Shown piece by piece: positions 20,268 through 45,667 of a stretch of DNA of 64,000 nucleotides. The DNA is from Limnohabitans sp. JirII-31 (lineage in GTDB: Bacteria; Pseudomonadota; Gammaproteobacteria; Burkholderiales; Burkholderiaceae_C). Under the pieces are notes generated by a model. The model did not search any database, was not told the origin of the DNA, and saw only the letters and a list, made by a program, of their open reading frames with translations. Where the stretch lies: NCBI RefSeq assembly GCF_002778315.1, contig NZ_NESA01000001.1, positions 558,001-622,000 on the forward strand, in the 5' to 3' direction. Both the position numbers and the translations under genes were made by a program. How positions within the stretch are numbered: position 1 is the first letter of the stretch; each line of letters starts with the position of its first letter.

Positions 20268-20282
20268 GGTCTTTTGAGGTGC

Positions 20283-21953: not shown

Positions 21954-22016
21954 AATAGTTAATAAATTGACATTAAAGAATTCATTTTGATGAATTCTAG
22001 TCAATAAATAACTATT
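21954..22016 (-). promoter_or_regulatory. Nested AT-rich inverted repeat immediately upstream of tpsB
   Basis: The inner palindrome GAATTCATTTTGATGAATTC (21978-21997) has perfect 8-bp arms. It is enclosed by outer arms: AATAGTTAATAAATTGAC (21954-21971) is largely complementary to GTCAATAAATAACTATT (22000-22016), with 8 outer and 6 inner pairs around a small internal loop. In the transcript the hairpin would end at the base before the tpsB ATG. It could be an operator or a translation-controlling structure. The rest of the 107-bp gap (22017-22060) is AT-rich and probably holds the promoter, though I cannot pick one -10/-35 pair. Confidence 0.65.
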
Positions 22017-22987: not shown

Positions 22988-23009
22988 GCGCCCAATTATC
23001 TGCGGCGAA

Positions 23010-23810: not shown

Positions 23811-23838
23811 GGTGTGTCTCGATTTGGTCAATGAAAAA

Positions 23839-24834: not shown

Positions 24835-24847
24835 GACAGCCGAGAGC

Positions 24848-27422: not shown

Positions 27423-27431
27423 CCCTCGTCC

Positions 27432-28298: not shown

Positions 28299-28303
28299 GC
28301 TAA

Positions 28304-29101: not shown

Positions 29102-29120
29102 GACAGTTTCTTCTTTCGGG

Positions 29121-30092
29121 TTATTCAACTTTGATGGCAGATTTGGTCACCACGCTTTTCCAGAGGCGTGATTCGTCTTGAACTTTCTTGCTGAAATCTG
29201 TACTGCTGCGTGCCACGGCGCGCGCGCCTGTGGCGGCAAACACCTCGATCACTTTGGGTTGCTCCACAGCACGCGCCACGCCTTGCTGAATGCGCGCCAG
29301 CACGGCGGGCGGCAAACCAGCAGGGGCCATCAGGCCAAACCAATAGACCATCTCATAGCTGCCGTAGCCGGCTTCGGTGAAGGTGGGCACCTCGGGGATG
29401 AGTGGGTGACGCTCCTTGCCCACCACCGCCAGGCCGCGCAACTTGCCACCTTTGATGTGCTGTGCGGCGGAACCTGCGCTGGACAAACCCACATCAATGC
29501 GGCCGGCCATCAAGTCGAGCAAGGCGGCGGCGACGCCCCGGTAGGGCACATGGGTGAGTTCTGCATTGGCTTGGATGAAAAAAAGTTCAGTCGCCAAGTG
29601 CGCGGAAGAGCCTTGACCGCCTGAGCCATAGGTCAAGGTTTTCGGGCTCTTGTGGGCTTGGTCCACCAAGTCTTTCAAGGTTTTGTAAGGCGCGTCAGCT
29701 TTGACCATCAGCACCGCAGGTGCTTCGGCGATGGTGCTGATTTTGACGATGTCTTTGTCCGGGTCATACGGCAGTTTGTCGTAGAGCGCAGACGACACCG
29801 CAAACGAGTTGTCGGTGACCAGCAAGGTGTAACCATCGGGGGCTGACTTGGCCACCATGTCGGTGCCTACTGTGCTGCCTGCACCGCCTTTGGTTTCGAC
29901 AATCACGGGCTGCCCCCATTGGTTGGTCAGTTCCGCGCCGAGCGTGCGCGCCGCTGTTTCGGTGAATGAGCCGGCAGCGAACGGCACGATGATGCGAATG
30001 GGTTTGCTGGGCCAGGTGTTTTGCGCCATGGCGCTGTGCATCAGCAGCAGGCCGAGGGCGACATGAAAAACGCGCAACATCAAACGGTGCAT
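29121..30092 (-). CDS. Bug/TctC-family tripartite tricarboxylate receptor
   Basis: This second receptor of the cluster has 323 residues with a signal peptide ending HSAMA-QN, then RIIVPFAAGSFTETAAR, VIVETKGGAGSTVGTDMVAKSAPDGYTLL in pieces, LPYDPDKDIVKIS and THVPYRGVAAALLDLMAGR. It differs substantially from the receptor at 23839 (different ligand-loop residues, SFTE against GAAD), so it probably binds another carboxylate. It sits between the aldolase and the racemase-family gene, on the same strand, with gaps under 20 bp. Confidence 0.9.
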   Translation of the reverse strand: MHRLMLRVFHVALGLLLMHSAMAQNTWPSKPIRIIVPFAAGSFTETAARTLGAELTNQWGQPVIVETKGGAGSTVGTDMVAKSAPDGYTLLVTDNSFAVSSALYDKLPYDPDKDIVKISTIAEAPAVLMVKADAPYKTLKDLVDQAHKSPKTLTYGSGGQGSSAHLATELFFIQANAELTHVPYRGVAAALLDLMAGRIDVGLSSAGSAAQHIKGGKLRGLAVVGKERHPLIPEVPTFTEAGYGSYEMVYWFGLMAPAGLPPAVLARIQQGVARAVEQPKVIEVFAATGARAVARSSTDFSKKVQDESRLWKSVVTKSAIKVE

Positions 30093-30107
30093 GGTGTTCC
30101 TGATGAT

Positions 30108-30782
30108 TTAAAGGTGGAGGGTGGCGCGCAACTGTTGGGCAGTGGCCTGGATGGAAGACAACACAGGGCGACCGAATTCGGCGCTCAGGCCCTGCAAGAT
30201 ATCGAAGGTGGGCAGTTGCGAGCAGGCAATGAACATGGCATCGCAACCATCGGTCATGACTTGGCGTGCCATCTGCGCCACTTCGGTGGAGGTGATGCGC
30301 CCCAATGCGTCCACGTTGGGGGCGCGCAAGCTGTCAAACGACGCCACATCAATCCCTCCATCGGCCAAGAAGCGTTTGAGCTGATCATTGACTTCGTCGT
30401 GGTAAGGAGTGACCAAACCAATGCGTTGGGCTCCTTGCGCTTGCAAGGCTTTCACCATGGCACTGGCTGTGGTGACGACGGGCTTGCCAATCAACTGGGT
30501 AAGTTCTGCACACAACTCGGCGTCACCTTGCGCACCAGACAAAAAACTGGCGGCGGTGCAACCGTAGGCCAAAGCCTGAATGGGCTGCCCAACCAAAGTC
30601 TGTGCCAGTGCCAGCGCTTGGGCTTTGTAGGCCGGAATGGTCTCACGCGTGAGCAGACCTTGACCGCGCGGAATCTTCAGCGTTTGACAATCGGTGCCTG
30701 AAGGCAGCCAGCCCACCAACTCGGTGGCCATGGTGGTGTTGTTGATGGGAACCATCAACGCAATGTGGAGTGGGTTGTTCAT
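30108..30782 (-). CDS. Asp/Glu racemase superfamily enzyme (maleate isomerase / arylmalonate decarboxylase-like)
   Basis: The 224-residue product has the two catalytic cysteines of the superfamily: Cys75 in AYGCTAASF and Cys187 in FIACSQLPTFD. The block RIGLVTPYHDEVNDQLKRFL is characteristic of maleate cis-trans isomerases and arylmalonate decarboxylases. The same chemistry could isomerise a cis-dicarboxylate produced by the flanking enzymes. The true start is ATG 30782, overlapping the stop of the upstream propeller gene (ATGA); the longer open frame up to 31178 is a shadow of that gene. Confidence 0.82.
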   Translation of the reverse strand: MNNPLHIALMVPINNTTMATELVGWLPSGTDCQTLKIPRGQGLLTRETIPAYKAQALALAQTLVGQPIQALAYGCTAASFLSGAQGDAELCAELTQLIGKPVVTTASAMVKALQAQGAQRIGLVTPYHDEVNDQLKRFLADGGIDVASFDSLRAPNVDALGRITSTEVAQMARQVMTDGCDAMFIACSQLPTFDILQGLSAEFGRPVLSSIQATAQQLRATLHL

Positions 30783-31810
30783 ACAGGTTCGATACGACGG
30801 GTGAGGGAGTGGTCTTGTTGGCGTATGCCTGGACGCAAAGGTCGCCAGTGCAGGGCACGGATTTCGCCAAACTCCTGGGGCAAGCGCTCCCAATGCCAAC
30901 CGCCATCTTGGCTGGCGAAGACCTGGCCCAAGTTGGTACAGGCCCACAGATGCATGGGTTGTAAGGGATGGGTGGCCACGGTCCAGACCGTGCTGTTGAC
31001 GGTGCCGGGCAAGAGCACCTCTTGCCAGTGTGCGCCGTAGTCTTCGCTGATCAGCAGGCGTCCCCGGTTGCCCGGAGGGCCATTGCCGTTGGTGAGAAAC
31101 ACCACGCCGGTGTGATCGAGCCGGGGCACGATGGCGCGGGTGTATTGCCAGGGCGAGTCGATGGCTTGGAACTCCCAATGCAAACCGCCATCGGTGCTGC
31201 GGTGCAGGCCTTGGTTGGTGGTGGCGTACATCAGGCGTTGGTGATTGGGTTGGTCGAGGATGGCGATGCCATGCACATCCGCAGAAATCAGTCCTTGATC
31301 GCGTGCATGCCAGGTGTCACCGTCGTCATGACTGACAAAGATGCCGCCAATTTCAACGCTCAGCCACACCGTGTGAACGTCCAGGGGATCAAACAAAATT
31401 TGCGTGACCCGCGTGGCCCCCATGTTGATGGTGGAGAACTGTTGCAAGCCTGGAACTTGGAGCGCTTGCCAAGTTTTACCGCCGTCACGGCTGCGACAAA
31501 TGCCCGCTGGGCGGCTGCCGACAAACCACAACTGAGGGTCTTGCGGGTGGATGGCGGCCACCCACACGTCTTGCAGCGGCGACGCAATGGCGGTCCACCG
31601 CGCACTGGCTTCGTGCCATTGGAACAAACCCATGTCGGTGCCAGCCAGCAGCCAGTCGGGATGCTCTAGGTGACTGGCGAAACTCCACACACGGGCTTCG
31701 AGGTACATGCCCGAATGGCTGTTGGGGTGCACCCAGTTCAGGCCACCGTCCTCGCTGAACCAAGCTGAGTGCCCAGCGGTGCCGACATAGACATGCGGTT
31801 GCAAATTCAT
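30779..31810 (-). CDS. Asp-box (BNR/VPS10-like) beta-propeller protein, probably cytoplasmic
   Basis: The 343-residue protein carries six Asp-box motifs (S-x-D-x-G-x-x-W): about residues 19-25, 107-114, 160-167, 205-212, 255-262 and 300-307. They predict a six- or seven-bladed propeller like those in sialidases, plant HCF136 and VPS10 proteins. There is no signal peptide (it begins MNLQPHVYVGTAGHS), so it is probably cytoplasmic. It is the first gene of the minus-strand operon and its stop overlaps the start of the racemase-superfamily gene, implying coupled expression. Function unknown; a scaffold or lactone/ester-binding enzyme are options. Confidence 0.75.
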   Translation of the reverse strand: MNLQPHVYVGTAGHSAWFSEDGGLNWVHPNSHSGMYLEARVWSFASHLEHPDWLLAGTDMGLFQWHEASARWTAIASPLQDVWVAAIHPQDPQLWFVGSRPAGICRSRDGGKTWQALQVPGLQQFSTINMGATRVTQILFDPLDVHTVWLSVEIGGIFVSHDDGDTWHARDQGLISADVHGIAILDQPNHQRLMYATTNQGLHRSTDGGLHWEFQAIDSPWQYTRAIVPRLDHTGVVFLTNGNGPPGNRGRLLISEDYGAHWQEVLLPGTVNSTVWTVATHPLQPMHLWACTNLGQVFASQDGGWHWERLPQEFGEIRALHWRPLRPGIRQQDHSLTRRIEPV

Positions 31811-31841
31811 ACTCAGTTCAAGCCTTGCACGGGGTGGTAAA

Positions 31842-31871
31842 TTGCGTGCGCTGGATGATAGAGACTATAAA
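31842..31871 (+). promoter_or_regulatory. Promoter of the plus-strand Bug receptor
   Basis: TTGCGT (31842-31847) and TATAAA (31866-31871) are spaced by 18 bp in the 89-bp gap between divergent genes. Transcription would begin near 31878. This rules out an upstream in-frame start at 31825 for the receptor gene and supports a start at 31885 or 31900. Confidence 0.5.
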
Positions 31872-31899
31872 AACTGCAACCGTCATGAAGGAGACAGCC

Positions 31900-32868
31900 G
31901 TGCTGAAGATCAAACAATGGGGAGTTGGAGGGGCCTTATTTTTGGGGTGTGTGCTGGGCGCTTTCGCACAAGCCTTTCCTCAAAAACCGGTGCGCGTGGT
32001 GATTGGTTTTCCGCCCGGTGGTGGCATCGACATGGTGGCTCGCTTGATGGCGCCCAAGCTGTCTGAGTCGCTTGGGCAATCGGTGCTGGTGGACAACCGT
32101 CCGGGCGCCAACGGTGTGCTCGCGATGGACCACGTGGCCAAATCAGCGCCCGATGGTTACACCTTGTTTTTGGGTACGTTGGGCAACTTGAGCATCAACC
32201 CTTCGTTCTATGCCAACTTGCCGTTCAATGTGGACAAACAATTTGTGCCGGTGACCGAGGTGGCTTCGTTGTCGTTTGTTTTGTTTGCGAACCCAGCGGT
32301 TCCTGCCAACACTTTGTCTGAGTTGGTGTCGTACGCCAAGGCCAATCCAGGCGTGCTGAATTACTCGTCCAGCGGGGCAGGGGGCTTGCCGCATTTGGCG
32401 GGTGAGTTGTTCAGTTCCGCCGTGGGCTCGAAGATGGTCCACGTGGCCTACAAGGGCAGCGCACCCAGCATCAGCGATGTGATGGGCGGGCAGGTGCAGA
32501 TGACGTTTGAAGCCGCAGCAGCGGGCGCTCAGCAGCTCAAAGCAGGTCGACTCAAGGCCTTGGGTGTGACGGGTAACAAACGCGTCGCTTTTTTGCCCGA
32601 TGTGCCTGCGGTGCAAGAAGTGGTGCCGGGGTTTGAGGTGCTCAATTGGTATGGCTTGGTGGCACCCGCAGGCACACCCAAGGAGACCATTCGCAAGTTA
32701 CAGCAAGAGATTGCCAAGGTGATGGCACTGCCCGAGATTCGCGACAAGATGCTGGCCATGGGCACCGACCCGGTGGGGTCAACGCCTGAGGAGTTTGGTC
32801 AGTACATCAAGTCTGAGACGCTCAAGTGGGGGCGCATCATCCGCGAAGGCAATATTCGCCCCGACTGA
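31900..32868 (+). CDS. Bug/TctC-family tripartite tricarboxylate receptor
   Basis: The third receptor is divergent from the catabolic operon. It has 322 residues: signal peptide MLKIKQWGVGGALFLGCV ending FAQA, then RVVIGFPPGGGIDMVARLMA, VLVDNRPGANGVLAMDHVAKSAPDGYTL in pieces, and HVAYKGSAPSISDVMGGQVQMTFE. I chose the GTG at 31900 because AAGGAG lies 6 bases before it and the result is a compact signal peptide; ATG 31885 is the alternative. Being the only cluster gene on the plus strand, with its own promoter, it may be expressed separately and serve in sensing or uptake of the inducer. Confidence 0.9.
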   Translation: MLKIKQWGVGGALFLGCVLGAFAQAFPQKPVRVVIGFPPGGGIDMVARLMAPKLSESLGQSVLVDNRPGANGVLAMDHVAKSAPDGYTLFLGTLGNLSINPSFYANLPFNVDKQFVPVTEVASLSFVLFANPAVPANTLSELVSYAKANPGVLNYSSSGAGGLPHLAGELFSSAVGSKMVHVAYKGSAPSISDVMGGQVQMTFEAAAAGAQQLKAGRLKALGVTGNKRVAFLPDVPAVQEVVPGFEVLNWYGLVAPAGTPKETIRKLQQEIAKVMALPEIRDKMLAMGTDPVGSTPEEFGQYIKSETLKWGRIIREGNIRPD

Positions 32869-32882
32869 CGCTGAACTTGAAT

Positions 32883-34124
<1,242 letters not shown>

Positions 34125-34140
34125 TCATGCAAAGTCAGCT

Positions 34141-34179
34141 TTGTGCGATGATTGGATTGATTGTGCGATAGTCGCGCAA
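34141..34179 (+). promoter_or_regulatory. Probable operator for the IclR-type regulator
   Basis: The 124-bp pobA/regulator gap contains TTGTGCGAT twice (34141-34149 and 34161-34169), exactly 20 bp apart. The second copy is the left half of the imperfect palindrome TTGTGCGATAGTCGCGCAA (34161-34179). A separate palindrome, CAAAG-TCAG-CTTTG, lies at 34130-34143. Two half-sites two helical turns apart on the same face fit IclR-family binding; the second abuts the regulator's ribosome-binding site, suggesting autoregulation. Confidence 0.5.
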
Positions 34180-34191
34180 AGAGGACGGTGT

Positions 34192-34950
34192 ATGTCGATA
34201 GCCAAAGCGGATGTGATTGAGGGGATGGTCAAAGGCATGGCTGTGCTGGAGAGTTTTGACACAGAACGCCAGCGGCTGAACGCCACCTTGGCGGCACAAC
34301 GCGCAGGCATCACGCGCGCTGCTGCACGTCGACACTTGTTGACCCTGCATCACTTGGGTTATCTGGAATCCGATGGCAGCTACTTCTGGTTGGCTGCCAA
34401 GGTGATGCGTTTTTCGGGCAGCTACTTGGCTTCGTCACGGTTGCCACGTGTGATACAGCCAACCCTGAACCGTTTGGCGGCCCAAGCGCAACATTCGTTT
34501 TCAGCCGTGGTGCTAGATGGAGAAGAGGTGGTCATCATTGCCCGCAGTGACGGGGCCCGTGTGCTGGCGTATGGCTTGCACTTGGGCGCACGTCTACCCG
34601 TGCATGCCACGTCCACAGGGCGCGTGTTGTTGGCAGGTAAAACAAAGACGGAGTTCAATGCCTGGCTGAAGGGACGCAGTTTGTCGCGTTTGACAGGCCA
34701 CACGGTCACAGACCCCAAGACCCTGCGTGAGCAGGTGGCCCAGGCGCAAATCAACGATTACGTCATCAGCTGTGAAGAGCACGAGCTGGGGGTGAGTGCC
34801 ATGTCTGTGCCTTTGCGCAACGCACAGGGCAAAGTGGTGGCAGCGCTGAACGTGGTGTTGCCGTCCCATGTCATGACAGCGGCCCACATACGGCAGCAAT
34901 TCTTGCCCTTGTTGCAAGGAGCTGCGCAAGAGTTGCGTGCTTTGTTGTGA
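34192..34950 (+). CDS. IclR-family transcriptional regulator (PobR/PcaR-like)
   Basis: The 252-residue protein has an N-terminal winged helix-turn-helix (about 7-65; LAAQRAGITRAAARRHLLTL) and a C-terminal IclR effector domain (about 80-250; GARLPVHATSTGRVLLAG, then EEHELGVSAMSVPLRN). The ALxxxGxxRAAAR pattern is typical of the PcaR/PobR/PcaU subgroup, which respond to 4-hydroxybenzoate, protocatechuate or beta-ketoadipate. Its divergence from pobA supports control of pobA by 4-hydroxybenzoate. ATG 34192 follows AGAGGA; a start at 34141 would lie within the presumed operator. Confidence 0.88.
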   Translation: MSIAKADVIEGMVKGMAVLESFDTERQRLNATLAAQRAGITRAAARRHLLTLHHLGYLESDGSYFWLAAKVMRFSGSYLASSRLPRVIQPTLNRLAAQAQHSFSAVVLDGEEVVIIARSDGARVLAYGLHLGARLPVHATSTGRVLLAGKTKTEFNAWLKGRSLSRLTGHTVTDPKTLREQVAQAQINDYVISCEEHELGVSAMSVPLRNAQGKVVAALNVVLPSHVMTAAHIRQQFLPLLQGAAQELRALL

Positions 34951-34954
34951 GTGA

Positions 34955-36496
34955 TCAGGCGCGCAGCTTGAAGCGTTGAATTTTCCCCGTAGCCGTTTTG
35001 GGCAGCTCGTGGACAAACTCAACCCAACGGGGATATTTGTAGGGTGCCAATTGCGATTTGACGTGTTGTTTCAAATCATCGGCGCTGAGCTGCTGCCCCG
35101 ATTTGAGAACCACAAAAGCCTTGGGCTTGATCAACCCATCGGTGTCGGCCAAGCCCACGACCGCAGCTTCCAAAATGCTGGGGTGCGTCATGAGCGAAGC
35201 TTCGACTTCGAAGGGTGATACGTAAATGCCACCGACCTTGAGCATGTCGTCGCTGCGACCACTGTAGGTGTAGTAGCCGTCAGCGTCGCGGATGTATTTG
35301 TCTCCGCTGCGCGTCCACTCGCCCGCAAAGGTGGCCTTGGTTTTGGCCCGGTTATTCCAGTACATGAGGGCAGCGCTGGGGCCGCTGATTTGGAGTTCCC
35401 CAATGTCACCGTCTTGGCATTCTTGGCCATCTTCCCCCACGATGCGCAGGGCATAACCCGGCACAGCTTTTCCTGTGGTGCCATAGCGCACCTCACCAGG
35501 ACGGTTGCTCAAAAAGATGTGCAGCATTTCGGTGGAACCAATGCCGTCCAAGATTTCGCTGCCGTATTCAGCCGTCCATTTTTTGCCAATCTCTGCGGGC
35601 AAGGCCTCGCCTGCGCTGGTGCACACACGCAGCTTCAAAGCCGATTTGGCCGGGCGTTGTGGGTCTGCCAACAAGGAGGCATACAAAGTAGGCACACCGT
35701 AAAAAATGGTCGGTTGATACTTGGTCAAGATGCCAAATACATCGGCTGTTGTGGGGCGGGCAGGCAGCAAGATGGTGGTGGCTCCGACGGCCATGGGAAA
35801 TGTCAGCGCATTGCCCAGACCGTAGGCAAAAAACAGTTTGGCGGCTGAGTAAACAACGTCTGAAGCTTGGATGCCTAAAACGCCTTTGCCATACAACTCG
35901 GCGGTTTGAATCAAATGGCTGTGCAGATGCACGGTGCCTTTCGGGGCGCCTGTTGATCCGCTCGAATAGAGCCAAAAGCACATGTCATCAGCACAGGTGT
36001 TCAAGCAAGAAGGTGTGGCATCCGCTTGGGCAATGAGTGACTCCAATGACTGATCTGCGCCAGCATATGTTTCGCCGGACACGATGACAGTTTTCAAGTC
36101 GGGGAGTTGGCCGATCAAACCCTCAAACGCAGGGCGAAGAGCACTCGATACCACCAAGACTTGTGCGCGGGAGTCACGCAGCATGTACTCAAAATCTTTG
36201 GCTGTCAGCAATGTGTTGGTAGCAACTGGCACCACGCCAGCCAGGATGCAACCCAAAAACACCACGGGCCAAGCTGGTGTATCCAGCATGCACAGCATGA
36301 GCCGGGTTTCTGGTGCGAAGCCTTGCGAACGCAGGGCGTTGGCAAAACGGTGAGCTTGTTCGGTCAGTTCGCCATAGGTCAGCGTCTGACCAGACAGGGC
36401 GTCGATGAAAGCCACTTTGTGAGGGTGTGAGGTGTTACGCGCCAGCAGATCCTGGGCTGCGTTGTATGAATGAGGTATGTTGACGAGGGGTTGCAT
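34955..36496 (-). CDS. Benzoate-CoA ligase family protein
   Basis: This acyl-adenylate-forming enzyme probably activates benzoate or a hydroxybenzoate to its CoA ester using ATP. The 513 residues carry the P-loop-like motif YSSGSTGAPKG (177-187), KLFFAYGLGNALTFPM typical of benzoate-CoA ligases (BadA/BclA/HbaA), the hinge YSGRSDDMLKVGGIYVSP and the C-terminal catalytic Lys in TATGKIQRF. ATG 36496 is preceded by GCAGGAGA. It converges on the IclR gene with 4 bp between stops. No box genes or benzoyl-CoA reductase are nearby, so the downstream pathway must lie elsewhere. Confidence 0.88.
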   Translation of the reverse strand: MQPLVNIPHSYNAAQDLLARNTSHPHKVAFIDALSGQTLTYGELTEQAHRFANALRSQGFAPETRLMLCMLDTPAWPVVFLGCILAGVVPVATNTLLTAKDFEYMLRDSRAQVLVVSSALRPAFEGLIGQLPDLKTVIVSGETYAGADQSLESLIAQADATPSCLNTCADDMCFWLYSSGSTGAPKGTVHLHSHLIQTAELYGKGVLGIQASDVVYSAAKLFFAYGLGNALTFPMAVGATTILLPARPTTADVFGILTKYQPTIFYGVPTLYASLLADPQRPAKSALKLRVCTSAGEALPAEIGKKWTAEYGSEILDGIGSTEMLHIFLSNRPGEVRYGTTGKAVPGYALRIVGEDGQECQDGDIGELQISGPSAALMYWNNRAKTKATFAGEWTRSGDKYIRDADGYYTYSGRSDDMLKVGGIYVSPFEVEASLMTHPSILEAAVVGLADTDGLIKPKAFVVLKSGQQLSADDLKQHVKSQLAPYKYPRWVEFVHELPKTATGKIQRFKLRA

Positions 36497-36576
36497 GGTG
36501 TCTCCTGCACTAAATTGCAACTTTATCTAATTTCGGCAATATATTTCATCGTGGTTTCCCCGTGGTCAACTCAGGC

Positions 36577-36797: not shown

Positions 36798-37727
36798 TCA
36801 GTTGAACAACCAATCAGGGTTCAACGCGACATAACAGTTCTTTTCACCCAACAGTTGCCCTTCTGGCGAGACGCAAAACGAGCCACGTTGGTATTTGTGC
36901 TGATCCGTCAAAACATAAGAACGATAAATCTCTTTGCTGTGTTTGCCGGTTTTGTCCTTGGGGAACAGCATCACAAGACGTGTCGCACCACATTCACCTT
37001 TTTGCATGCATTGCACAGCCGCTTTGTCGTCTACATAGAACTCTAGGTAAACCGCCCCTGGAAATTTGGTGTTCGGTTTGGCCACTTTGACCATGCAGGG
37101 TAGTTCTTGTGCATGGGGCAAGCCCATGCGGTCGGCGAAGGTGTTCATTTCGCCGAGAACGGTTTTTCGGTATTTGGTGCTCACGACATCGCGACATAAA
37201 AAATAGTCAGCGGTCTTGGTCGTGCGAGAAACAGTCGTGAACGGGCGGTTGTTGCCATCGAGCTTGATGATGGCCTTGTCATAGAGCGCACTGACGGTGG
37301 GTTCTTCCTTTTTGGCTTCTTTGCCATGTGCATTGCCATGGCCGCCGCCATGACCGTCATCTTTCTTCTTTTCTTCTTTTTTAGGCTCTTTGTGGTCATC
37401 CCCGCCATGACCATCGTCTTTCTTTTTTTCTTCTGGCTTGGCGTGCGGATCTTTGCCATGCGCATCTTTGGATTCGGCCTTGGGGGCTGGCTTCGGTTCT
37501 TCTTTGGCAACGGGTTTGGGCTCTTCAAAAGCTTCTTTGATCACCCGTTTGTAGGTGTAGCCGCGTCCGGTTTCTCCCTCTTCATCGACGTACTTGAATT
37601 TCTTTTCTTCCTTGACAGGCTCGGCCTTCTTGGGGTCGTTGGCCCAGGATGGCGTGCTCAGACAGCCTATCAAAGCGATCAGACAAGAGGCAACAGCAAG
37701 GGGGGAGAAATAGGTCGACAACTTCAT
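36798..37727 (-). CDS. Secreted six-cysteine protein with a Lys/His-rich linker, unknown family
   Basis: The 309-residue product has a signal peptide (cleavage likely after SWA, residue 29; a lipobox-like LIGC at 19-22 is an alternative). A low-complexity linker (about 35-142) is rich in Lys, Glu, Pro and His and contains KKKDDGHGG twice (101-109 and 121-129). The C-terminal globular domain (about 145-309) has cysteines 178, 211, 240, 246, 285 and 298. All six are matched, with nearly the same spacing, in the protein encoded immediately upstream at 37800-38444, so the two are tandem paralogues. I do not recognise the family. A periplasmic location and three disulfides are inferred; the DGHGG motifs could bind metal. 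Confidence 0.7.
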   Translation of the reverse strand: MKLSTYFSPLAVASCLIALIGCLSTPSWANDPKKAEPVKEEKKFKYVDEEGETGRGYTYKRVIKEAFEEPKPVAKEEPKPAPKAESKDAHGKDPHAKPEEKKKDDGHGGDDHKEPKKEEKKKDDGHGGGHGNAHGKEAKKEEPTVSALYDKAIIKLDGNNRPFTTVSRTTKTADYFLCRDVVSTKYRKTVLGEMNTFADRMGLPHAQELPCMVKVAKPNTKFPGAVYLEFYVDDKAAVQCMQKGECGATRLVMLFPKDKTGKHSKEIYRSYVLTDQHKYQRGSFCVSPEGQLLGEKNCYVALNPDWLFN

Positions 37728-37799
37728 ACCAAACAGGGCTTATCCCCAGAAGATCGACACCTCAAGAGCAGGCTTTAACGCAGGGGATGAATAAAGTGC

Positions 37800-38444
37800 T
37801 CAGTCAACGGTGTAGCAGGTGGTGTCGCTGTGCAATTTGCCCTTGTCCGTCACGCAGTGTTGTGCAATGAGTTTGCGTGACATGTCGGAGAGAAAGTAGG
37901 AGCGGTACAAGACTTCACCCTTAGGAATCAAGGTGATGCTGCGAAAGACAGGGCATTGCTCGTTGCGTACGCAAGCCGTCAAGCGCTGATTGTTGGTGTA
38001 GAGGTGGATGCTGATACGACCGGGGGTCAAACTCTTCGCAGTCCCAATACTGACCACACAAGCATCGCCTTTGACAAAAGGAATTTCATTGAGTTCTGCA
38101 AAGTAGTTCATTTCAGCGACGACAAGCTCGCGAAACCAAGGTGCGACGATGCCCTCGCACTCGAAGTATTCGAGTTTGATGGTGTGGGCGATGGCCTCGG
38201 TGTAAGGCCTATTTTTAGGGCCCAGCAGCAGCATGGGTTCTTTACCCGACTGGGGTGGGCGTGCCAGCAATGCGCGCGAGGCAGTGGGCGGGGCCGGCTT
38301 GCTGAAATTGGGTTCGGAACTGGTGGACTCCTCTCCCTTTTTGATCGTATAAGGCTTGTATCTAGGTTCGGGTTTGTCTTGTGCGAAGGCAGTTGTCCAT
38401 ACCGTCAGGAGCAAACAGGTCAGCAGGCAAAACTTCTTGAACAT
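37800..38444 (-). CDS. Secreted six-cysteine protein, short paralogue, unknown family
   Basis: The 214-residue product begins with a signal peptide (MFKKFCLLTCLLLTVWTTAF, cleavage near AFAQ-DK at residue 22), then a short Pro/Lys/Ser linker and a domain homologous to the protein encoded next at 36798. Six mature cysteines (96, 129, 158, 164, 197, 210) align with the paralogue; intervals are 33, 29, 6, 33 and 13 here against 33, 29, 6, 39 and 13 there. Other shared blocks are AEMNYFAELNEIP/GEMNTFADRMGLP and LYRSYFLSDM/IYRSYVLTDQ. ATG 38444 was chosen for the signal peptide; an upstream in-frame ATG at 38507 adds nothing recognisable. Function unknown. Confidence 0.72.
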   Translation of the reverse strand: MFKKFCLLTCLLLTVWTTAFAQDKPEPRYKPYTIKKGEESTSSEPNFSKPAPPTASRALLARPPQSGKEPMLLLGPKNRPYTEAIAHTIKLEYFECEGIVAPWFRELVVAEMNYFAELNEIPFVKGDACVVSIGTAKSLTPGRISIHLYTNNQRLTACVRNEQCPVFRSITLIPKGEVLYRSYFLSDMSRKLIAQHCVTDKGKLHSDTTCYTVD

Positions 38445-38543
38445 AGTGGGAGTTATCGGTTGTAAGAAGGTCAACTTTATCAGCATCGACGCATGTGCCG
38501 AGTGCAACTCAAGTAAAGTGATGCCAAACCGATCAACAAGATC

Positions 38544-39467: not shown

Positions 39468-40172
39468 TCAGCGCGCTTTGTATTGGGTGCTGCCAAACAA
39501 CACCTCACGCGATTTGTCATCCGTGATGGGTTTGCGCAAATCGGCCAACACCTGAACACCGCGTTGCACGGCAGGACGAGCGCTGATACGGTCAAACCAG
39601 TCTTTGAGGTGCGGATAGTCTGCCCAGTCGATGCCTTGGTTTTGCCAGCTGCGCAGCCAAGGGAAGATGGCGATATCGGCAATGCTGTAGCTGTTGCCAG
39701 CGATGAACTTGGTTTTTCCCAACTGCTTGTTCATCACACCATACAAACGCTTGGCTTCGTTGGTGTAACGGTTGACGGCGTACTCAATTTTTTCGGGTGC
39801 GTAAATTCGAAAGTGGTGTGCCTGGCCCAGCATGGGACCCACACCACCCATTTGGAACATCAGCCATTGCAACACCTCGTATTTGGCGCGGTCACTTTTG
39901 GGTAAAAACTTGCCCGTCTTTGCCGCCAAGTACAGCAAGATGGCGCCTGATTCAAAGAGGCTGATCGGTTTACCGTCGGGACCGTGTGGATCGACCAATG
40001 CAGGAATTTTGTTGTTTGGACTGATCTTCAAGAACTCCGGCTTGAATTGGTCACCTTGACCAATGTTGACAGGATGGGCCAACCAGTCACGTCCAAGTTT
40101 GAGCCCACATTCTTCGAGCATGATGTGGACCTTGTGTCCGTTGGGGGTAGGCCATGAGTAAACGTCGATCAT
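39468..40172 (-). CDS. yfcG: Glutathione S-transferase family protein (YfcG/Ure2-like)
   Basis: YfcG-type GSTs are disulfide-bond oxidoreductases that use glutathione. The 234 residues start MIDVYSWPTPNGHKVHIMLEE in pieces, with the N-terminal thioredoxin fold holding SPNNKIPALVD (cis-Pro) and LFESGAILLYLA, then the alpha-helical domain with NSYSIADIAIFPWLRSW. It lies 9 bp downstream of the acyl-CoA dehydrogenase gene and is probably the last gene of that operon. The stop is 6 bp from the convergent lipoprotein stop. Confidence 0.85.
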   Translation of the reverse strand: MIDVYSWPTPNGHKVHIMLEECGLKLGRDWLAHPVNIGQGDQFKPEFLKISPNNKIPALVDPHGPDGKPISLFESGAILLYLAAKTGKFLPKSDRAKYEVLQWLMFQMGGVGPMLGQAHHFRIYAPEKIEYAVNRYTNEAKRLYGVMNKQLGKTKFIAGNSYSIADIAIFPWLRSWQNQGIDWADYPHLKDWFDRISARPAVQRGVQVLADLRKPITDDKSREVLFGSTQYKAR

Positions 40173-40181
40173 TTCAATTCC

Positions 40182-41444
40182 TTAACAGCCACGGGTGATG
40201 GGCATTTCAACTTCCTGGGGTGCCGAGACAATGTGTCTCGCCAGTTCGAGTTTAGCGATGGCGTTGCGATGCACTTCATCGGGGCCATCGGCCAAACGCA
40301 GCGTGCGTTGGTGAGCATAAGAGTAGGCGAGGGGAAAGTCATCTGACACACCCGCAGCGCCATGCGCTTGAATGGCCCAGTCAATGATTTGTGTCGCCAT
40401 GGTTGGGGCAATGACTTTGATCATGGCGATTTCAGCACGCGCCACTTTGTTGCCCACGGTGTCCATCATGTAGGCGGCTTTGAGGGTCAACAAGCGAGCT
40501 TGCTCAATCATGATGCGTGCGTCGGCAATTCGTTCATGCCACACACCTTGCGCCGATACAGGTTTGCCAAAGGCGACACGGCTATTGAGTCGACGACACA
40601 TCAACTCCAGCGCGCGCTCGGCAGCACCAATGGTGCGCATGCAATGATGAATGCGTCCTGGTCCTAAGCGACCTTGCGCAATTTCAAAACCACGGCCTTC
40701 ACCCAGTAGTAAGTTGCCCACAGGCACGCGAACATTTTTGAGGACCACTTCCATGTGACCATGTGGTGCGTCGTCGTAGCCAAACACGGTCAGGGGCCGC
40801 TCAACGGTGACGCCAGGGCTGTTGCTGGGTACGATGATCATGCTTTGTTGTGAGTGACGTGGGGCCTCAGGGTCGGTCTTGCCCATCACGATGTAAACCG
40901 CACAACGAGGATCTCCTGCGCCGGAGCTCCACCATTTGCGGCCATTGATGACGTAGTGGTCACCATCGCGCTCAATACGGCACTGGATGTTGGTGGCGTC
41001 AGACGATGCGACCTCGGGTTCAGTCATCAAAAATGCCGAACGAATTTCGCCCCGCAGCAAAGGCTCCAGCCATTGGTCTTTGAGTGATTCACTGGCGTAG
41101 CGCTCAAAGGTTTCCATGTTGCCCGTATCGGGTGCCGAGCAATTGAAGACTTCAGCAGCAAAAGGCACCCGCCCCATGATTTCGCACAAAGGTGCGTATT
41201 CAAGATTGGACAAGCCTTGGGGTGCGCGCGGGCTGTGCGGCAAGAACAAGTTCCACAAGCCTGCGGCTTTGGCCTTGGGTTTGAGCTCTTCCACAATTTG
41301 GGTGGGTACCCAGGCGTTGCCCTTGGCGCGGTTTTGTGCAATCTCAGCATAAAACCGTTTTTCGTTGGGATAGATGTGTTCATCCATGAATGCGAGTAGG
41401 CGTGCTTGCATGCCCTTGACTTTGTCGGTGTAGTCGAAATTCAT
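40182..41444 (-). CDS. Acyl-CoA dehydrogenase of the ACAD10/ACAD11 type
   Basis: The 420-residue flavoprotein has the standard acyl-CoA dehydrogenase domains: N-terminal helices, the beta domain with [16 protein letters not shown] and [15 protein letters not shown], and the C-terminal helical domain. The stretch [31 protein letters not shown], and the ending [19 protein letters not shown] strongly recall mammalian ACAD10/ACAD11. Where ordinary family members have the base Glu in YEGT, this one has Asp in [12 protein letters not shown]10/11 and Pseudomonas LvaC process 4-phospho-acyl-CoAs made by an APH-fold kinase; such a kinase is encoded 34 bp upstream. Mammals fuse the two activities in one chain. 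The function is inferred from this pairing. Confidence 0.85.
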
Positions 41445-41478
41445 GGTGATTTCCTTGGTGTTGTCTTGTTGTGCGTGA

Positions 41479-42564
41479 TCACGCTTGTTGTGCAAATTTC
41501 CAGGCCAACTCGGCCATGGGTCGAGCGCCAGCGCCCGATGCTTTGGCTTGTGTGCTGGAGGCGGTACCAGCTTCCACGCGCTTGGCAATGCCTTGCAAAA
41601 TGGCTGCAATGCGAAACATGTTGTAGGCGAGGTAGAAATTCCAGTCGGTTTTCAGATCTTGTGGTTTGGCTAACCCTGTGCGGTCGCAATAGCGATGGAT
41701 GTATTCAGATTCGGTGGGAATGCCCAAGGCGGCGACGTCAACGCCGCCAATGCCACGAAAGGTGCCCGGTGGAATATGCCAAGCCATGCAGTGGTAGCTG
41801 AAGTCAGCCAAGGGATGACCAATGGTGGAGAGTTCCCAGTCCAACACAGCCAACACTTTGGGTTCGGTGGGGTGGAACATCAAATTGTCGAGACGGTAGT
41901 CGCCATGCACGATGCTGACTTTGCTGGCATCCAAGGCGCTGGCAGGCATGTGCGCAGGCAGCCAAGCCATCAGCTGATCCATTTCTGCAATCGGCTGCGT
42001 GACAGAGGCCACATATTGTTTGCTCCAACGACCAATTTGACGTTCGAAGTAATTGCCGGGTTTGCCGTAATCGGCCAGGCCCCGTTCAGCAAAAGGCACA
42101 GTGTGGAGTGCCGCGATGACACGGTTCATTTCGTCATAGATGGCGCCACGCTCTTGGCGGTTCATGGTGGGGATTGTTTGATCCCACAGCACGCGCCCTT
42201 GCACAAACTCCATGACATAAAACGCCCTCCCGATGATGGACTCGTCTTCACACAACACATGCATTTGGGCCACGGGTACATCGGTGCCATACAGACCGCC
42301 CATGACCTTGAACTCACGCTCGACCGCATGGGCTGAGGGCAGTAGCTTGGCCACTGGGCCAGGCTTGGCCCGCATCACGTAGCTTTTGCTGGGGGTGATG
42401 AGTTTATAAGTAGGGTTGGATTGGCCGCCTTTGAACATTTCCACGCTCAAAGGACCTGCAAAGCCTTGCAGATGTTGACTTAGCCAAGTTTGTAAGGTGC
42501 CCACATCAAAGCTGTGGGCATCGCTGACAGCACGGGTGCCGACAAATGCGTCATCCCGGCTCAT
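41479..42564 (-). CDS. APH-fold phosphotransferase (ACAD10/11 kinase-domain / LvaA-like)
   Basis: The 361-residue protein has an aminoglycoside-phosphotransferase/choline-kinase fold: a glycine-rich loop [12 protein letters not shown] (44-55), Lys/Arg in VMRAKPGP, the catalytic loop VHGDYRLDN (219-227, Asp222) and the metal-binding [14 protein letters not shown] (Asp242). This version of the motifs matches the kinase domain of ACAD10/ACAD11 and bacterial LvaA, which phosphorylates 4-hydroxyacyl-CoA. Drug resistance is unlikely given the neighbours. It lies 13 bp after the Crp-type gene and 34 bp before the dehydrogenase. Confidence 0.85.
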
Positions 42565-42577
42565 ACGACGGCCTTAT

Positions 42578-43297
42578 TCAGTGATCGGCTTCGCTGATGT
42601 GAAGCAAAGCTTCTCGGTTGCGAATGACCAATCCACCCGCTTCGATGCGAATGGCTTCTTCGCGCTCCATGGCCTTGAGCTCTTGGTTGACACGTTGACG
42701 CGAAGCACCCAGCAATTGAGCCAGTTCTTCTTGTGCCAGGTGCAAACCAATGCGCGTTTCTTGTGCGTTGGTCAGGCAAGGCACACCGTAACTGCGAGCC
42801 AGGTGCAGCAGTTGCTTGGCCAAGCGCGAACGCAAGGGCAGGGTGTTGAGGTCTTCCACCAAACCAAAGAGTTGGCGAATACGACGCGCTTGCAAACGCA
42901 ACATGGCTTCGTAGAACTCGACGTGTTGCGTCAAGATTTTTTGGAAGTCGGCTTTGGCCACACACAAGATGGTGGTGTCGCCATGCGCGTACACATCGTG
43001 GGTGCGACGATCGCCATCCAAAATTGCCACGTCGCCAAACCAAATGCCAGGCTCCACATAAGTGAAGGTGATTTGCTTGCCCGACAGTGAGGTTGAGCTC
43101 ACTCGTACGGCGCCTTTGGCGCAGGCCATCCACTCTTCGGGCGCATCGCCGCGCGCTGCGATCAGGTCGCCGTCTTTGCATCGTTTGACGTAAGCGCATC
43201 GAAGAATGTCGTGTCGAAGTGAAGGAGAAAGAGATGAGAACCAACGACCTGCGTTGATTGACTCGCGTTCTTCGATATTAAGAATGGGATCGTCCAT
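42578..43297 (-). CDS. Crp/Fnr-family transcriptional regulator
   Basis: The 239-residue product has a cyclic-nucleotide-binding-like domain (about 20-140; DGDLIAARGDAPEEWMACAKGAVRV in pieces, GIWFGDVAILDG), a dimerisation helix and a C-terminal winged helix (LAQEELAQLLGASRQRVNQEL). It lacks the Fnr-type N-terminal cysteine cluster, so an iron-sulfur oxygen sensor is unlikely. It is embedded in the acyl-CoA operon, 53 bp after the enoyl-CoA hydratase gene and 13 bp before the kinase gene, and probably controls it in response to a metabolite. ATG 43297 was chosen over a longer frame to 43354 that reaches the upstream gene's stop. Confidence 0.87.
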   Translation of the reverse strand: MDDPILNIEERESINAGRWFSSLSPSLRHDILRCAYVKRCKDGDLIAARGDAPEEWMACAKGAVRVSSTSLSGKQITFTYVEPGIWFGDVAILDGDRRTHDVYAHGDTTILCVAKADFQKILTQHVEFYEAMLRLQARRIRQLFGLVEDLNTLPLRSRLAKQLLHLARSYGVPCLTNAQETRIGLHLAQEELAQLLGASRQRVNQELKAMEREEAIRIEAGGLVIRNREALLHISEADH

Positions 43298-43350
43298 AAA
43301 CTGTCTTGTGTGTGACCTAATGTTGATAAATTGTCGCTCGGGCGACCTGT

Positions 43351-44133
43351 TCAAGATTTGTAGATTGGTTTTTCTTTGTGAAGAAATGCGGCGATACCGA
43401 TGCCCGCGTTAGCGTGGTGTAAGTTCTTCACGAAGTGATCTCGTTCTTGAGACAAGTGCACCGTCATGTTGTGCGTGCTGGCATCGTTGAGCAATTCCTT
43501 GATGCTAGACATGGCGTTGGGTGCGCGTGCATTGAGACGCTCAGCCAATTGCAGCGCCTGATCGAGCGCGTTGCCACTGTCGACCACTTGATTGACCACG
43601 CCAAGTGCATGCAAGCGTTCAGCGCCAATGCGCTCTCCCAGCAAGAGCATTTCCGACGCCAATTGGCGCGGCAGTGCCTGAGCCAAGCTCCAGCTGCCGC
43701 CACCGTCGGGTGACAAGGCGATGCTGCTGTAAGCCATGACAAAAATACTGTCGCGTGCAGCGACCACCAAATCGCACATCAGCACCAAGGAAAAACCAGC
43801 ACCTGCTGCCGCGCCTTCAACGGCTGCGATCACAGGCTTGGGGAAGGTGCGGATGGCCTCAATCCAGCTGTGCAAACCTTCAATACTTTGGGCTTGTACT
43901 TCAGGCGCTTTGTCGCGGTTGCCTTGCAAGCGTTGCAAGTTGCCGCCTGCGCAAAAGTTGGCGCCTTCGCCCGTGATGATGACGCTGCGTATTTCGGGGT
44001 TGGTCTCGGCGACATTGAGCGCCTCTATGCCAGCGGCATACATCTCTGGCCCTAGCGCGTTGCGCAGCGAGGGATCGGACAGGGTCAAGATCAGGGTCTG
44101 ACCTTGGCTGGTGCTTTTGAGTTGTGCAGTCAT
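43351..44133 (-). CDS. Enoyl-CoA hydratase/isomerase family protein
   Basis: This 260-residue crotonase hydrates trans-2-enoyl-CoA or isomerises the double bond. Oxyanion-hole segments are GANFCAGGNLQRL and EGAAAGAGFSLVLMCD; the active-site region reads SSIALSPDGGGSWSLAQALP, in which the usual second Glu position is Asp within PDGG, a pattern of PaaG/oxepin-CoA-type and related isomerases. It is 13 bp downstream of the 3-hydroxyacyl-CoA dehydrogenase gene. Together they could take the enoyl-CoA made by the ACAD10/11-like enzyme to a 3-ketoacyl-CoA. Confidence 0.88.
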   Translation of the reverse strand: MTAQLKSTSQGQTLILTLSDPSLRNALGPEMYAAGIEALNVAETNPEIRSVIITGEGANFCAGGNLQRLQGNRDKAPEVQAQSIEGLHSWIEAIRTFPKPVIAAVEGAAAGAGFSLVLMCDLVVAARDSIFVMAYSSIALSPDGGGSWSLAQALPRQLASEMLLLGERIGAERLHALGVVNQVVDSGNALDQALQLAERLNARAPNAMSSIKELLNDASTHNMTVHLSQERDHFVKNLHHANAGIGIAAFLHKEKPIYKS

Positions 44134-44146
44134 CGCAATACAGAGT

Positions 44147-45667
44147 TCAAGACTCGACGTGGCTCAGACTGAGTCCAATCGCACCGCGTCGACGCAGCCA
44201 AGGGCTCGGGCGATAACGTGGGTCGCCGTAGACGGTCTGCACATTGAACAGAACTTCCAAAATCTCGGTCGGACCGAACTTGTCCCCCATCATCAAGGGG
44301 CCCATGGGGTAACCCAAGCCTAGTGTGACTGCAGTTTCCAAGTCTTGTGGTGTGCACACGCCTTGTTGGCAAATGTCGCAGGCAATGTTGACGATGGTGG
44401 CGACCACGCGTTGGGTCACAAATCCACCACTGTCGCGGATCACACTGACAGGCTTGCCATCGCGCGCGAAGAGGGCGTGCGCGGCGTCGCGCATGTCGGC
44501 TCGGGTGGCGGGGTTGGTCGCCAGTACACGGCGCTTGGTGACCTTATCGTCAATCAAGAAATCAATGCCAATGGTGCGGGCTGGGTCAAGCCGCTCGACG
44601 ATAGCGACTGTGGTGACATCAAAGCCCAGGGGTGCCACGATGGACAGGGCTTGTGCCGAGGGAGATGCACCCGTTTCAATCTTGGCGCCTAAGTCTTTGA
44701 GCAATTGCAACAACTCGGCGCGCCGCACGGCGCGGGTAGAGACCCACACAGGAGGCATGTCGGACACGACAGGCACGGCTGGCTCGGGGGGTACTTGTGC
44801 CACACCCTCGATGTATTTGTAGAAGCCTTCTCCTACTTTTTTGCCCACAATCCCGCCAGCCAAGCGTTGGGCGGTGATGACGCTGGGGCGGTAACGCGGC
44901 TCGTCGTAATACTGCTGGTAGATCGACTCCATGACGGGATGCGACACATCGAGTGCGGTCAAGTCCATCAACTCGAAGGGGCCGAGTTTGAATCCCACTT
45001 GGTCTTTCAAAATGCGGTCGATGGTGGCGAAGTCGGCAATGCCTTCGGACACGATACGCAAAGCTTCGGTGCCGTAGCCCCGACCCGCGTGGTTCACGAT
45101 AAAACCCGGCGTGTCTTGCGCGTGTACAGCTTTGTGGCCCATCTGGGTTGCGTATTTGGCCAAGTCTTGGCAAACAGCGGGCTTGGTTTTGATACCGGCA
45201 ATGACTTCAACCACTTTCATCAAAGGCACGGGGTTGAAAAAGTGGTAACCCGCAAATTGCTCTGGATGCTTCAGCGCAGAAGCGATGGCCGTGACAGACA
45301 AAGACGAGGTGTTGGTGACCAGCACTGTGGTGGGTTGCACCAAAGATTCAAGCTCAGCGAAGAATGATTTCTTGATGTCCAAACGTTCAACAATGGCTTC
45401 AATGACCAAATCGCAATCGGCCAAATCTGTCAGTTGCGCGGCGGGTTGAAGTGCTTGTTTGTACTGAGTTGCCTGTTCAGGGCTGAGTCGTTGTTTCTCG
45501 ACCAGCTTGTCCCATTGAGCCCCTACGGCAGCGATGGCTTTGGATACAGCATCGGCCTGCATGTCAAACAGTTTGACGCGGCTGCCGGCTTGTGCCGCAA
45601 TTTGCGCAATGCCGCGCCCCATGGCTCCGGCGCCGGCGACGCCTACAGTTTTGTAAATCGGATTCAT
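44147..45667 (-). CDS. 3-hydroxyacyl-CoA dehydrogenase (PaaH/PaaC type, duplicated C-domain)
   Basis: The 506-residue NAD-dependent enzyme oxidises 3-hydroxyacyl-CoA to 3-ketoacyl-CoA. The Rossmann motif VGVAGAGAMGRGIAQ opens it; EAIVERLDIKKSFFAEL and NTSSLSVTAIAS follow, and the catalytic His lies in GYHFFNPVPLMKVVEV. Two copies of the C-terminal helical domain are present (about 190-290 and 410-500), each with a G-F-x-x-x-R/N entry (DTPGFIVNHAGRGY and DSGGFVTQRVVATI), as in PaaH-type proteins. ATG 45667 is used; an in-frame TTG lies 6 bp upstream. It is the first gene of the minus-strand operon. Confidence 0.9.
   Translation of the reverse strand: MNPIYKTVGVAGAGAMGRGIAQIAAQAGSRVKLFDMQADAVSKAIAAVGAQWDKLVEKQRLSPEQATQYKQALQPAAQLTDLADCDLVIEAIVERLDIKKSFFAELESLVQPTTVLVTNTSSLSVTAIASALKHPEQFAGYHFFNPVPLMKVVEVIAGIKTKPAVCQDLAKYATQMGHKAVHAQDTPGFIVNHAGRGYGTEALRIVSEGIADFATIDRILKDQVGFKLGPFELMDLTALDVSHPVMESIYQQYYDEPRYRPSVITAQRLAGGIVGKKVGEGFYKYIEGVAQVPPEPAVPVVSDMPPVWVSTRAVRRAELLQLLKDLGAKIETGASPSAQALSIVAPLGFDVTTVAIVERLDPARTIGIDFLIDDKVTKRRVLATNPATRADMRDAAHALFARDGKPVSVIRDSGGFVTQRVVATIVNIACDICQQGVCTPQDLETAVTLGLGYPMGPLMMGDKFGPTEILEVLFNVQTVYGDPRYRPSPWLRRRGAIGLSLSHVES

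Follow-up and report, generated by a model that had tools for sequence, protein, structure and literature searches.

A probable composite operon in Limnohabitans with a putative 4-hydroxyacyl-CoA kinase-dehydrogenase pair and a separable HAD-ECH module

A probable composite operon

The window is a stretch of 64,000 nucleotides from Limnohabitans sp. JirII-31 (NCBI RefSeq assembly GCF_002778315.1, contig NZ_NESA01000001.1, positions 558,001 to 622,000), whose genome is 3.48 Mb in 44 contigs. Its minus strand carries, in the order of transcription, a 3-hydroxyacyl-CoA dehydrogenase (HAD), a protein labelled enoyl-CoA hydratase (ECH), a Crp-type regulator, a kinase (KIN), an acyl-CoA dehydrogenase (ACAD) and a glutathione S-transferase (GST). 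The original prediction, made from the DNA letters, took the first five genes as an operon that phosphorylates a 4-hydroxyacyl-CoA, eliminates the phosphate and feeds beta-oxidation. We argue that the operon is composite. It would consist of two functional modules, kinase-ACAD and HAD-ECH, plus one Crp/FNR-type regulator, and we put the probability of this reading at about 0.7. The operon looks composite because HAD and ECH follow paa genes without the kinase pair in one relative, while a genome of the window's own genus keeps the regulator, kinase and ACAD without ECH. The argument draws on gene content, family membership, residues, phylogeny, linkage and separability, all observed here. The genes are as follows.

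44147..45667, minus strand: HAD, two-domain 3-hydroxyacyl-CoA dehydrogenase of the PRK08268 subfamily (Pfam 3HCDH_N/3HCDH; NF006124)
43351..44133, minus strand: ECH, crotonase-fold protein of the alternative oxepin-CoA hydrolase family (NF046063), with neither catalytic Glu
42578..43297, minus strand: Crp/FNR-family transcription regulator, probable ATG start at 43297 (Pfam cNMP_binding and HTH_Crp_2)
41479..42564, minus strand: KIN, APH-fold kinase, putative 4-hydroxyacyl-CoA kinase (Pfam APH; similarity to 3dxp and ACAD11)
40182..41444, minus strand: ACAD10/11-type ACAD, putative 4-phosphoacyl-CoA phosphate-eliminating enzyme (similarity to ACAD11, residues)
39468..40172, minus strand: YfcG-like GST, a neighbour of uncertain membership, 9 bp downstream of ACAD

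The gaps from HAD through to GST are 13, 53, 13, 34 and 9 bp. The five-gene order and the 13-53 bp spacing given in the original prediction agree with recomputed coordinates, and both protein motifs it quoted, from the kinase and the ACAD, are found in the translations. For the regulator a TTG at 43354 is also open as a start; homologues in two relatives (L235 and L050) have their first start at the position matching ATG 43297. The gene cluster is not a product of chance, since Pfam E-values are low (3e-50 for APH in the kinase, 4e-35 for the C-terminal domain of the ACAD) and the gene order recurs in relatives. The G+C of the operon is 0.557 versus 0.559 for the window. The closest named matches to the kinase are from uncultured Burkholderiales and Comamonadaceae genomes at no more than 89% identity, and loci labelled Limnohabitans are at 79-82%.

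The proposed scheme runs as follows. In module 1 the kinase would transfer phosphate from ATP to the 4-hydroxyl group of a 4-hydroxyacyl-CoA. The ACAD, containing FAD, would take the alpha proton via Asp386 while the phosphate is held by Arg259, His267 and Arg270. It would then eliminate the phosphate and return the electrons, giving trans-2-enoyl-CoA with no net oxidation, and this product would pass to ordinary beta-oxidation enzymes encoded elsewhere. Module 2, HAD and ECH, would most likely carry out oxepin-CoA ring opening and 3-hydroxyadipyl-CoA oxidation in phenylacetyl-CoA breakdown, complementing paaA, C, D and E elsewhere in the genome. We infer the natural substrate, this phenylacetate role of module 2, the targets and signal of the regulator, and co-transcription of the genes.

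HAD and ECH as a separable module

The label enoyl-CoA hydratase does not hold for the second gene. A canonical enoyl-CoA hydratase has two catalytic glutamates, and the window ECH has neither: S115, M133 and Y135 stand where canonical copies in the alignment set have mostly E, L and E. The same is true of its relatives. There is no Glu at either catalytic place in any of the 82 ECH copies at 60% identity or above, all of them distinct sequences. The protein passes NF046063, the alternative type of oxepin-CoA hydrolase, with 385.7 bits against a cut-off of 300, and it clears the subfamily model NF005700 (enoyl-CoA hydratase family protein) as well. An earlier study proposes an alternative oxepin-CoA hydrolase, H281DRAFT_04594, that is important for growth on phenylacetate and is without the rat hydratase residues (PMC9007349). 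The first gene is a genuine 3-hydroxyacyl-CoA dehydrogenase type. It scores 726 bits against the NF006124 subfamily (cut-off 508), its best solved relative is 3mog, and its substrate would be 3-hydroxyadipyl-CoA or something similar. Calling it PaaH-type is correct at the level of this subfamily; it fails for the PaaH equivalog TIGR02279, where HAD reaches 446 of the 669 bits required.

HAD-ECH and kinase-ACAD are separable modules, yet they are often together. In one locus (L180, genome G038) HAD (73%) and ECH (63%) lie on the same strand directly behind paaA, C, D and E, from a paa query set without paaB. PaaA scores 540 bits there, ECH scores 370 bits against NF046063, and at the thresholds applied genome G038 shows neither a kinase nor an ACAD match. 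Locus L179 has HAD, ECH and regulator, and its 18 kb hold no match to kinase or ACAD. The opposite loss is found in G080, which belongs to the window's genus. It retains the regulator, kinase, ACAD and GST, its HAD is a frame of 321 residues, and no NF046063 match is present genome-wide at 1e-60, so ECH is missing. L050 is like it, with regulator, kinase and ACAD kept, no ECH and a 321-residue HAD. We also note that the HAD homologues at L235 6850-7815 and L050 5341-6306, both of 321 residues, keep both ends of the 506-residue protein and have no ECH behind them. The window genome itself carries paaA, C, D and E on its contig 43, and the 19 kb surrounding these genes gave no match to HAD or ECH at 1e-3.

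The two modules were also compared across genomes and loci. The genome samples (120, 185, 59 and 119) were drawn by the search tool. Among the 120 family genomes there are 73 above-cut-off ECH copies in 64 genomes, and 53 of the 73 lie within 6 kb of a kinase match, a linkage exceeding independence. Such an ECH is absent from 38 of the 97 genomes with a kinase at 65% or above, and 5 genomes with one lack a kinase at that level. The locus sets are of two kinds: 80 named loci that are the nearest relatives of the window kinase, and 55 other loci (kinase at 60% or above). The fractions from the latter are not frequencies, because these loci were chosen partly for missing parts. The five-gene order recurs among the 80 closest named loci. 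Where enough flank is available HAD, ECH, regulator and ACAD all surround the kinase in 62 of 66 close loci, so a survey of co-occurrence in other genomes comes out in favour of a conserved neighbourhood. Close loci with enough sequence on the relevant side have the regulator beside the kinase in 69/69 and the ACAD in 68/68. In the other loci the regulator is beside the kinase in 47/50 with enough upstream sequence, HAD in 12/50, ECH in 17/50 and ACAD in 34/50.

One can imagine that all five genes make up one 4-hydroxy acid route, where kinase and ACAD produce the enoyl-CoA, ECH hydrates it and HAD oxidizes the 3-hydroxyacyl-CoA. The tight order in 62 of 66 covered close relatives speaks for this, as do the 53 of 73 ECH copies near a kinase and the genuine type of HAD. 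Against it, both catalytic glutamates are missing in 82/82 close copies. A single route also does not account for the genome with HAD-ECH behind paa genes and no kinase pair, for the kinase pair being retained where ECH is absent and HAD shortened, or for the 38 of 97 kinase genomes without an above-cut-off ECH. We consider a single pathway unlikely. The claim that HAD and ECH are the downstream beta-oxidation steps of this route finds no support: ECH is non-canonical, and both genes are separable from the kinase pair and stand behind paa genes in one relative. To see the next step of the kinase-ACAD route in this 'enoyl-CoA hydratase' beside it would be an easy misreading.

A different possibility is that the kinase-ACAD pair works inside the phenylacetate route or a related dicarboxylate route, where it would clear a 4-hydroxylated by-product arising in module 2 or close to it. 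The persistent linkage of the two modules and the paa genes in the window's own genome agree with this. We think it quite unlikely, since the kinase pair is retained with ECH absent and HAD shortened, and only 12 of the 50 other loci, a set picked partly for missing parts, have HAD next to the kinase. A specific repair or bypass can also be drawn. The pair would phosphorylate 4-hydroxyadipyl-CoA and yield 2,3-dehydroadipyl-CoA, an on-pathway substrate upstream of the operon's HAD. The 4-hydroxyadipyl-CoA could arise, for example, when 3,4-dehydroadipyl-CoA is hydrated at the wrong place, or from its lactone; this is a proposed intermediate, not an observed one. We hold this to be very unlikely, but it would account for the lasting association of the two modules and, if true, would add a new class of substrate to the bacterial ACAD10/11 system.

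It must be noted that several points weigh against the composite operon. The full neighbourhood around the kinase in close relatives and the excess linkage of ECH to the kinase have been given above. Paa genes are found beside HAD-ECH in one relative only. The window HAD falls below the PaaH equivalog cut-off, and so does the L180 HAD that stands behind paa genes (432 of 669 bits). For the oxepin-CoA hydrolase family the evidence comes from the fitness of mutants and not from enzymology (PMC9007349). No acyl-CoA ligase linked to these genes was seen that could supply the 4-hydroxyacyl-CoA. More broadly, no conserved CoA ligase or thiolase was recognised from the first residues in the flank clusters of the 80 loci, with no library search made of these clusters. 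Finally, the Burkholderia proteins used below as relatives of the kinase and ACAD (PMC11342911) are relatives by description.

The kinase-ACAD pair

For the kinase and ACAD, similarity to solved structures supports the composite reading. By phmmer the kinase matches 3dxp first (6e-165), which we take to be a solved kinase from Cupriavidus, then ACAD11 (9e-78) and 9o56 (7e-48). In local alignments the kinase is 68.5% identical to 3dxp, 43.1% to the kinase domain of mouse ACAD11 and 35.5% to 9o56. For the ACAD three ACAD11 chains lead (1e-145), followed by 4hr3 (6e-136), and the next match is 4u83 at 2e-37. It is 59.9% identical to human ACAD11, 60.1% to mouse ACAD11 and 57.3% to 4hr3. The window genome has a single ACAD of the ACAD10/11 kind, with 968 bits; the runner-up has 125 bits.

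The residues agree with the similarity. Work on the structure of ACAD11 singles out D220, N225, R176 and R86 in the kinase and R626, R631, H634, R637 and D753 in the ACAD (PMC12440821). ACAD11 R626, H634, R637 and D753, found or modelled as needed, correspond to R259, H267, R270 and D386 of the window ACAD, and the R631 position is identical too. D220, N225 and R176 of the ACAD11 kinase, likewise found or modelled as needed, correspond to D222, N227 and R175 of the window kinase. For R86 the numbering gave no counterpart, as position 86 is Phe; the Arg that adjoins the alpha-C Glu (E84) is R83. A proline has been tied to the widened ACAD pocket (PMC11342911). P69 of the window ACAD aligns with it, provided that the pocket proline is the proline of WNLFLP.

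The residue sets are conserved well beyond the window. All 64 ACADs at 76% identity or above keep the set, the window's own copy included, and so do 91 of the 92 at 64-76%, where the exception is a match that ends before D386. At 50-64% identity 24 of 28 keep it, and the other four deviate only at P69. Of the four ACADs below 50%, two retain the set (one of these deviates at P69) and two do not have it. The kinase set is kept in 174 of 174 fetched kinases. Of the ordinary ACADs in this genome 8 were found, 7 fetched and 4 passed coverage, and in these 4 R259/H267/R270/D386 are absent as a set.

The two genes also go together across genomes. With thresholds of E<=1e-90 for the ACAD and E<=1e-40 for the kinase, the ACAD is found in 105 of the 120 family genomes and the kinase in 104. 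Both are present in 103, the kinase only in 1, the ACAD only in 2 and neither in 14. The matches lie within 1.5 kb on the same strand in 80 of the 103 genomes with both, the kinase comes first in 80 of 82 kinase-ACAD pairs, and the median gap between matches is 44.5 bp. In 185 genomes of the class the ACAD is found in 21 (1e-90) and the kinase in 24 (1e-20). APH-fold kinases act on many substrates. This versatility raises the scenario of a kinase that acts on something else, such as a small hydroxylated metabolite, with the ACAD as a neighbour that does not share its substrate; the 23 of 103 genomes where the two are not adjacent could be taken the same way. However, there are only 3 discordant genomes against the 103 of 120 with both, the two domains are fused in ACAD11, and the non-adjacent genomes still encode an ACAD of the ACAD10/11 kind. 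Relatives also act sequentially in vitro (PMC11342911). We regard a separate kinase substrate as highly improbable.

The similarity, residues, trees and linkage support the placement of kinase and ACAD in the ACAD10/11-LvaA/LvaC kind, as the original prediction had suggested. The kinase and elimination reactions are in print for relatives, namely ACAD10/11 and the Burkholderia proteins, so the activity proposed earlier has precedent in bacteria. A Burkholderia kinase and a Burkholderia ACAD can each substitute for the matching half of ACAD10 in vitro in turning 4-hydroxyhexanoyl-CoA to hexenoyl-CoA, and ACAD10 works without an added electron acceptor (PMC11342911). The kinase-ACAD half of the operon is known chemistry because these relatives replaced the ACAD10 halves. 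By analogy, 4-hydroxyacyl-CoA is most likely the substrate on which the window kinase and ACAD putatively act, with the mechanism transferred from relatives.

Gene trees and two bands of ACAD

Trees were made with quick IQ-TREE runs that included ACAD11, 3dxp, 9o56 and 4hr3 and left out LvaA and LvaC. The window ACAD is in a 72-row group with ACAD11 and 4hr3 (support 97, starred), and the four ordinary ACADs from its genome that entered the tree lie outside this group. The window kinase is in a 42-row group with the ACAD11 kinase and 3dxp (SH-aLRT 94, unstarred). An opposing 10-row group at 99, starred, holds 9o56 and the 28-33% kinases. Thus the phylogeny puts the ACAD outside the ordinary ACADs and the kinase with that of ACAD11, whose branch is long and whose placement is flagged as unsure.

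The ACADs fall into two bands, with limits of 76% and 64% that were fixed after the identity table was inspected. Among the 120 family genomes an ACAD at 76% or above is found in 33, one at 64-76% in 68, and both in 0; extra copies below 64% occur. The first band adjoins the kinase in 19 genomes and lies elsewhere in 14, while the second adjoins it in 59 and lies elsewhere in 9. The kinase tree of a matched set groups the window-type with the Acidovorax/Variovorax-type operons (99, starred) and rejects a grouping of window-type with the split genomes (approximately unbiased test, p-AU 0.0007). The ACAD tree of the same set rejects the joining of window-type with Acidovorax/Variovorax-type (p-AU 8e-62). 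These p-values are descriptive, because the groups were named after the identities were known. The ACAD grouping of window-type with the split genomes has a support of only 39, and a related 14-row group in a larger tree has 100, starred.

There is strong evidence in these alignments that the gene trees of kinase and ACAD conflict. One reading is that the ACAD was replaced behind an unchanged kinase, and such a replacement would support the partnership of the two. Plain divergence of one orthologue would also yield mutual exclusion, yet it would not produce the conflict between the trees. The two ACAD bands, which exclude each other beside a single conserved kinase, make a natural comparison for finding residues that set partnership or chain length.

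Neighbours, control regions and other features of the window

The original prediction gave the set its own GST. In relatives with the gap read, GST is a nearby gene and not a shared operon member. It is downstream on the same strand in 21 of 68 close loci and 28 of 50 other loci; the ACAD-GST gap was read in 5 of 7 chosen loci, and each time it held a gene on the opposite strand. GST was dropped as a shared member on that ground. Beyond it, 36798-38507 on the minus strand encodes two proteins that look exported, one of them with many Lys/Glu/His repeats. Some close loci also have relatives of the 37800-38507 protein near the operon.

No conserved palindrome was found upstream of HAD, where none with 5-base arms occurs in more than 4 of 68 loci. 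The commonest upstream palindromes are at ECH (29/74), KIN (28/81) and ACAD (23/80); these are GC-rich and the regions are largely coding. The best at the regulator is 12/65 and is a T-run. Shuffled rows shown as a control reached at most 2, and plain shuffles make a weak control. The promoter scan gave 1 promoter-like site against 3.4 expected and the terminator scan 12 terminator-like sites against 8.1 expected (sd 2.6), neither clearly above chance.

Two further regions of the window can be described. On the minus strand 12096-22004 holds an open frame of 2723 residues with a weak coding score, preceded on the same strand by a frame of 573 residues with a signal-like start. The two look like a large protein for secretion and its dedicated transporter, of the two-partner type. 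The region 22061-36520 includes a benzoate-CoA ligase family protein (TIGR02262, 781 bits). Its other frames are presumably periplasmic binding-protein-like, FAD-protein-like, aldolase-like, hydroxybenzoate-hydroxylase-like and IclR-like, and the region looks like a cluster for small-acid or aromatic catabolism.

Comparison with known systems

Searches of open-licence PMC papers turned up no description of the composite operon, and the accessible parts of PMC12543098 and PMC13186573 add nothing on the kinase-ACAD pair. In the literature covered, no natural bacterial substrate of a kinase-ACAD pair beyond levulinic acid is settled, and this locus is a place to look. Many Burkholderiales have it in a conserved setting together with its own regulator, and its link to phenylacetate breakdown can be tested.

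The putative Pseudomonadaceae loci that were read have no recognisable lva operon; seven of them have a common ACAD at 64-69% without a kinase. Six loci (L135-L139 and L141) carry an ACAD10/11-type ACAD at 66-68% with no kinase match in the stretch. The frame divergent to it is, we assume, LysR-like. An ACAD of this kind has a match in 117 of 119 genomes of one genus. At L155 179-3169 there is a third frame that we take to be histidine-phosphatase-like. It is in a row with an ACAD (59%) and a kinase (29%), like the cluster of Pseudomonas citronellolis (PMC6692424).

The pair resembles LvaA/LvaC of Pseudomonas putida in having a kinase plus ACAD and 4-hydroxyacyl-CoA chemistry, as compared by description (PMC6692424, PMC12440821, PMC11342911). 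The lva operon has the order kinase-LvaB-ACAD with LvaD and LvaE. The window differs: LvaB, LvaD and LvaE are not adjacent, the kinase-ACAD gap is 34 bp, and the neighbours are GST and a Crp-type regulator with no short-chain dehydrogenase/reductase or ligase next to them. The earlier observation that no LvaB-like gene is present is therefore correct. Its use as a sign of another substrate is weak, because P. citronellolis is also without lvaB (PMC6692424), which makes the absence non-diagnostic, and the Burkholderia proteins worked with ACAD10 halves. LvaA is reported to be 29% identical to the ACAD10/11 kinases, and other bacterial kinases reach 51% (PMC11342911); the window kinase is 43% identical to that of ACAD11.

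The mammalian ACAD10 and ACAD11 share with the window the kinase and ACAD domains, with identical residues wherever catalytic and phosphate-binding positions were mapped (PMC12440821, PMC11342911). The window has two separate proteins in a bacterial cluster with a regulator, and no haloacid dehalogenase domain like that of ACAD10. A further likeness is to 3dxp and the Burkholderia proteins, bacterial relatives of the pair, where each Burkholderia protein worked with the other ACAD10 half (PMC11342911). For module 2 the likeness is to H281DRAFT_04594. The window ECH passes the equivalog cut-off for alternative oxepin-CoA hydrolase and also lacks the hydratase residues, and by description the spacing of S118/M135 in that protein differs by one from S115/M133 here (PMC9007349). 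We argue that the chemistry of this locus is known, that its genomic setting is conserved and composite, and that two of its five genes need a corrected role.

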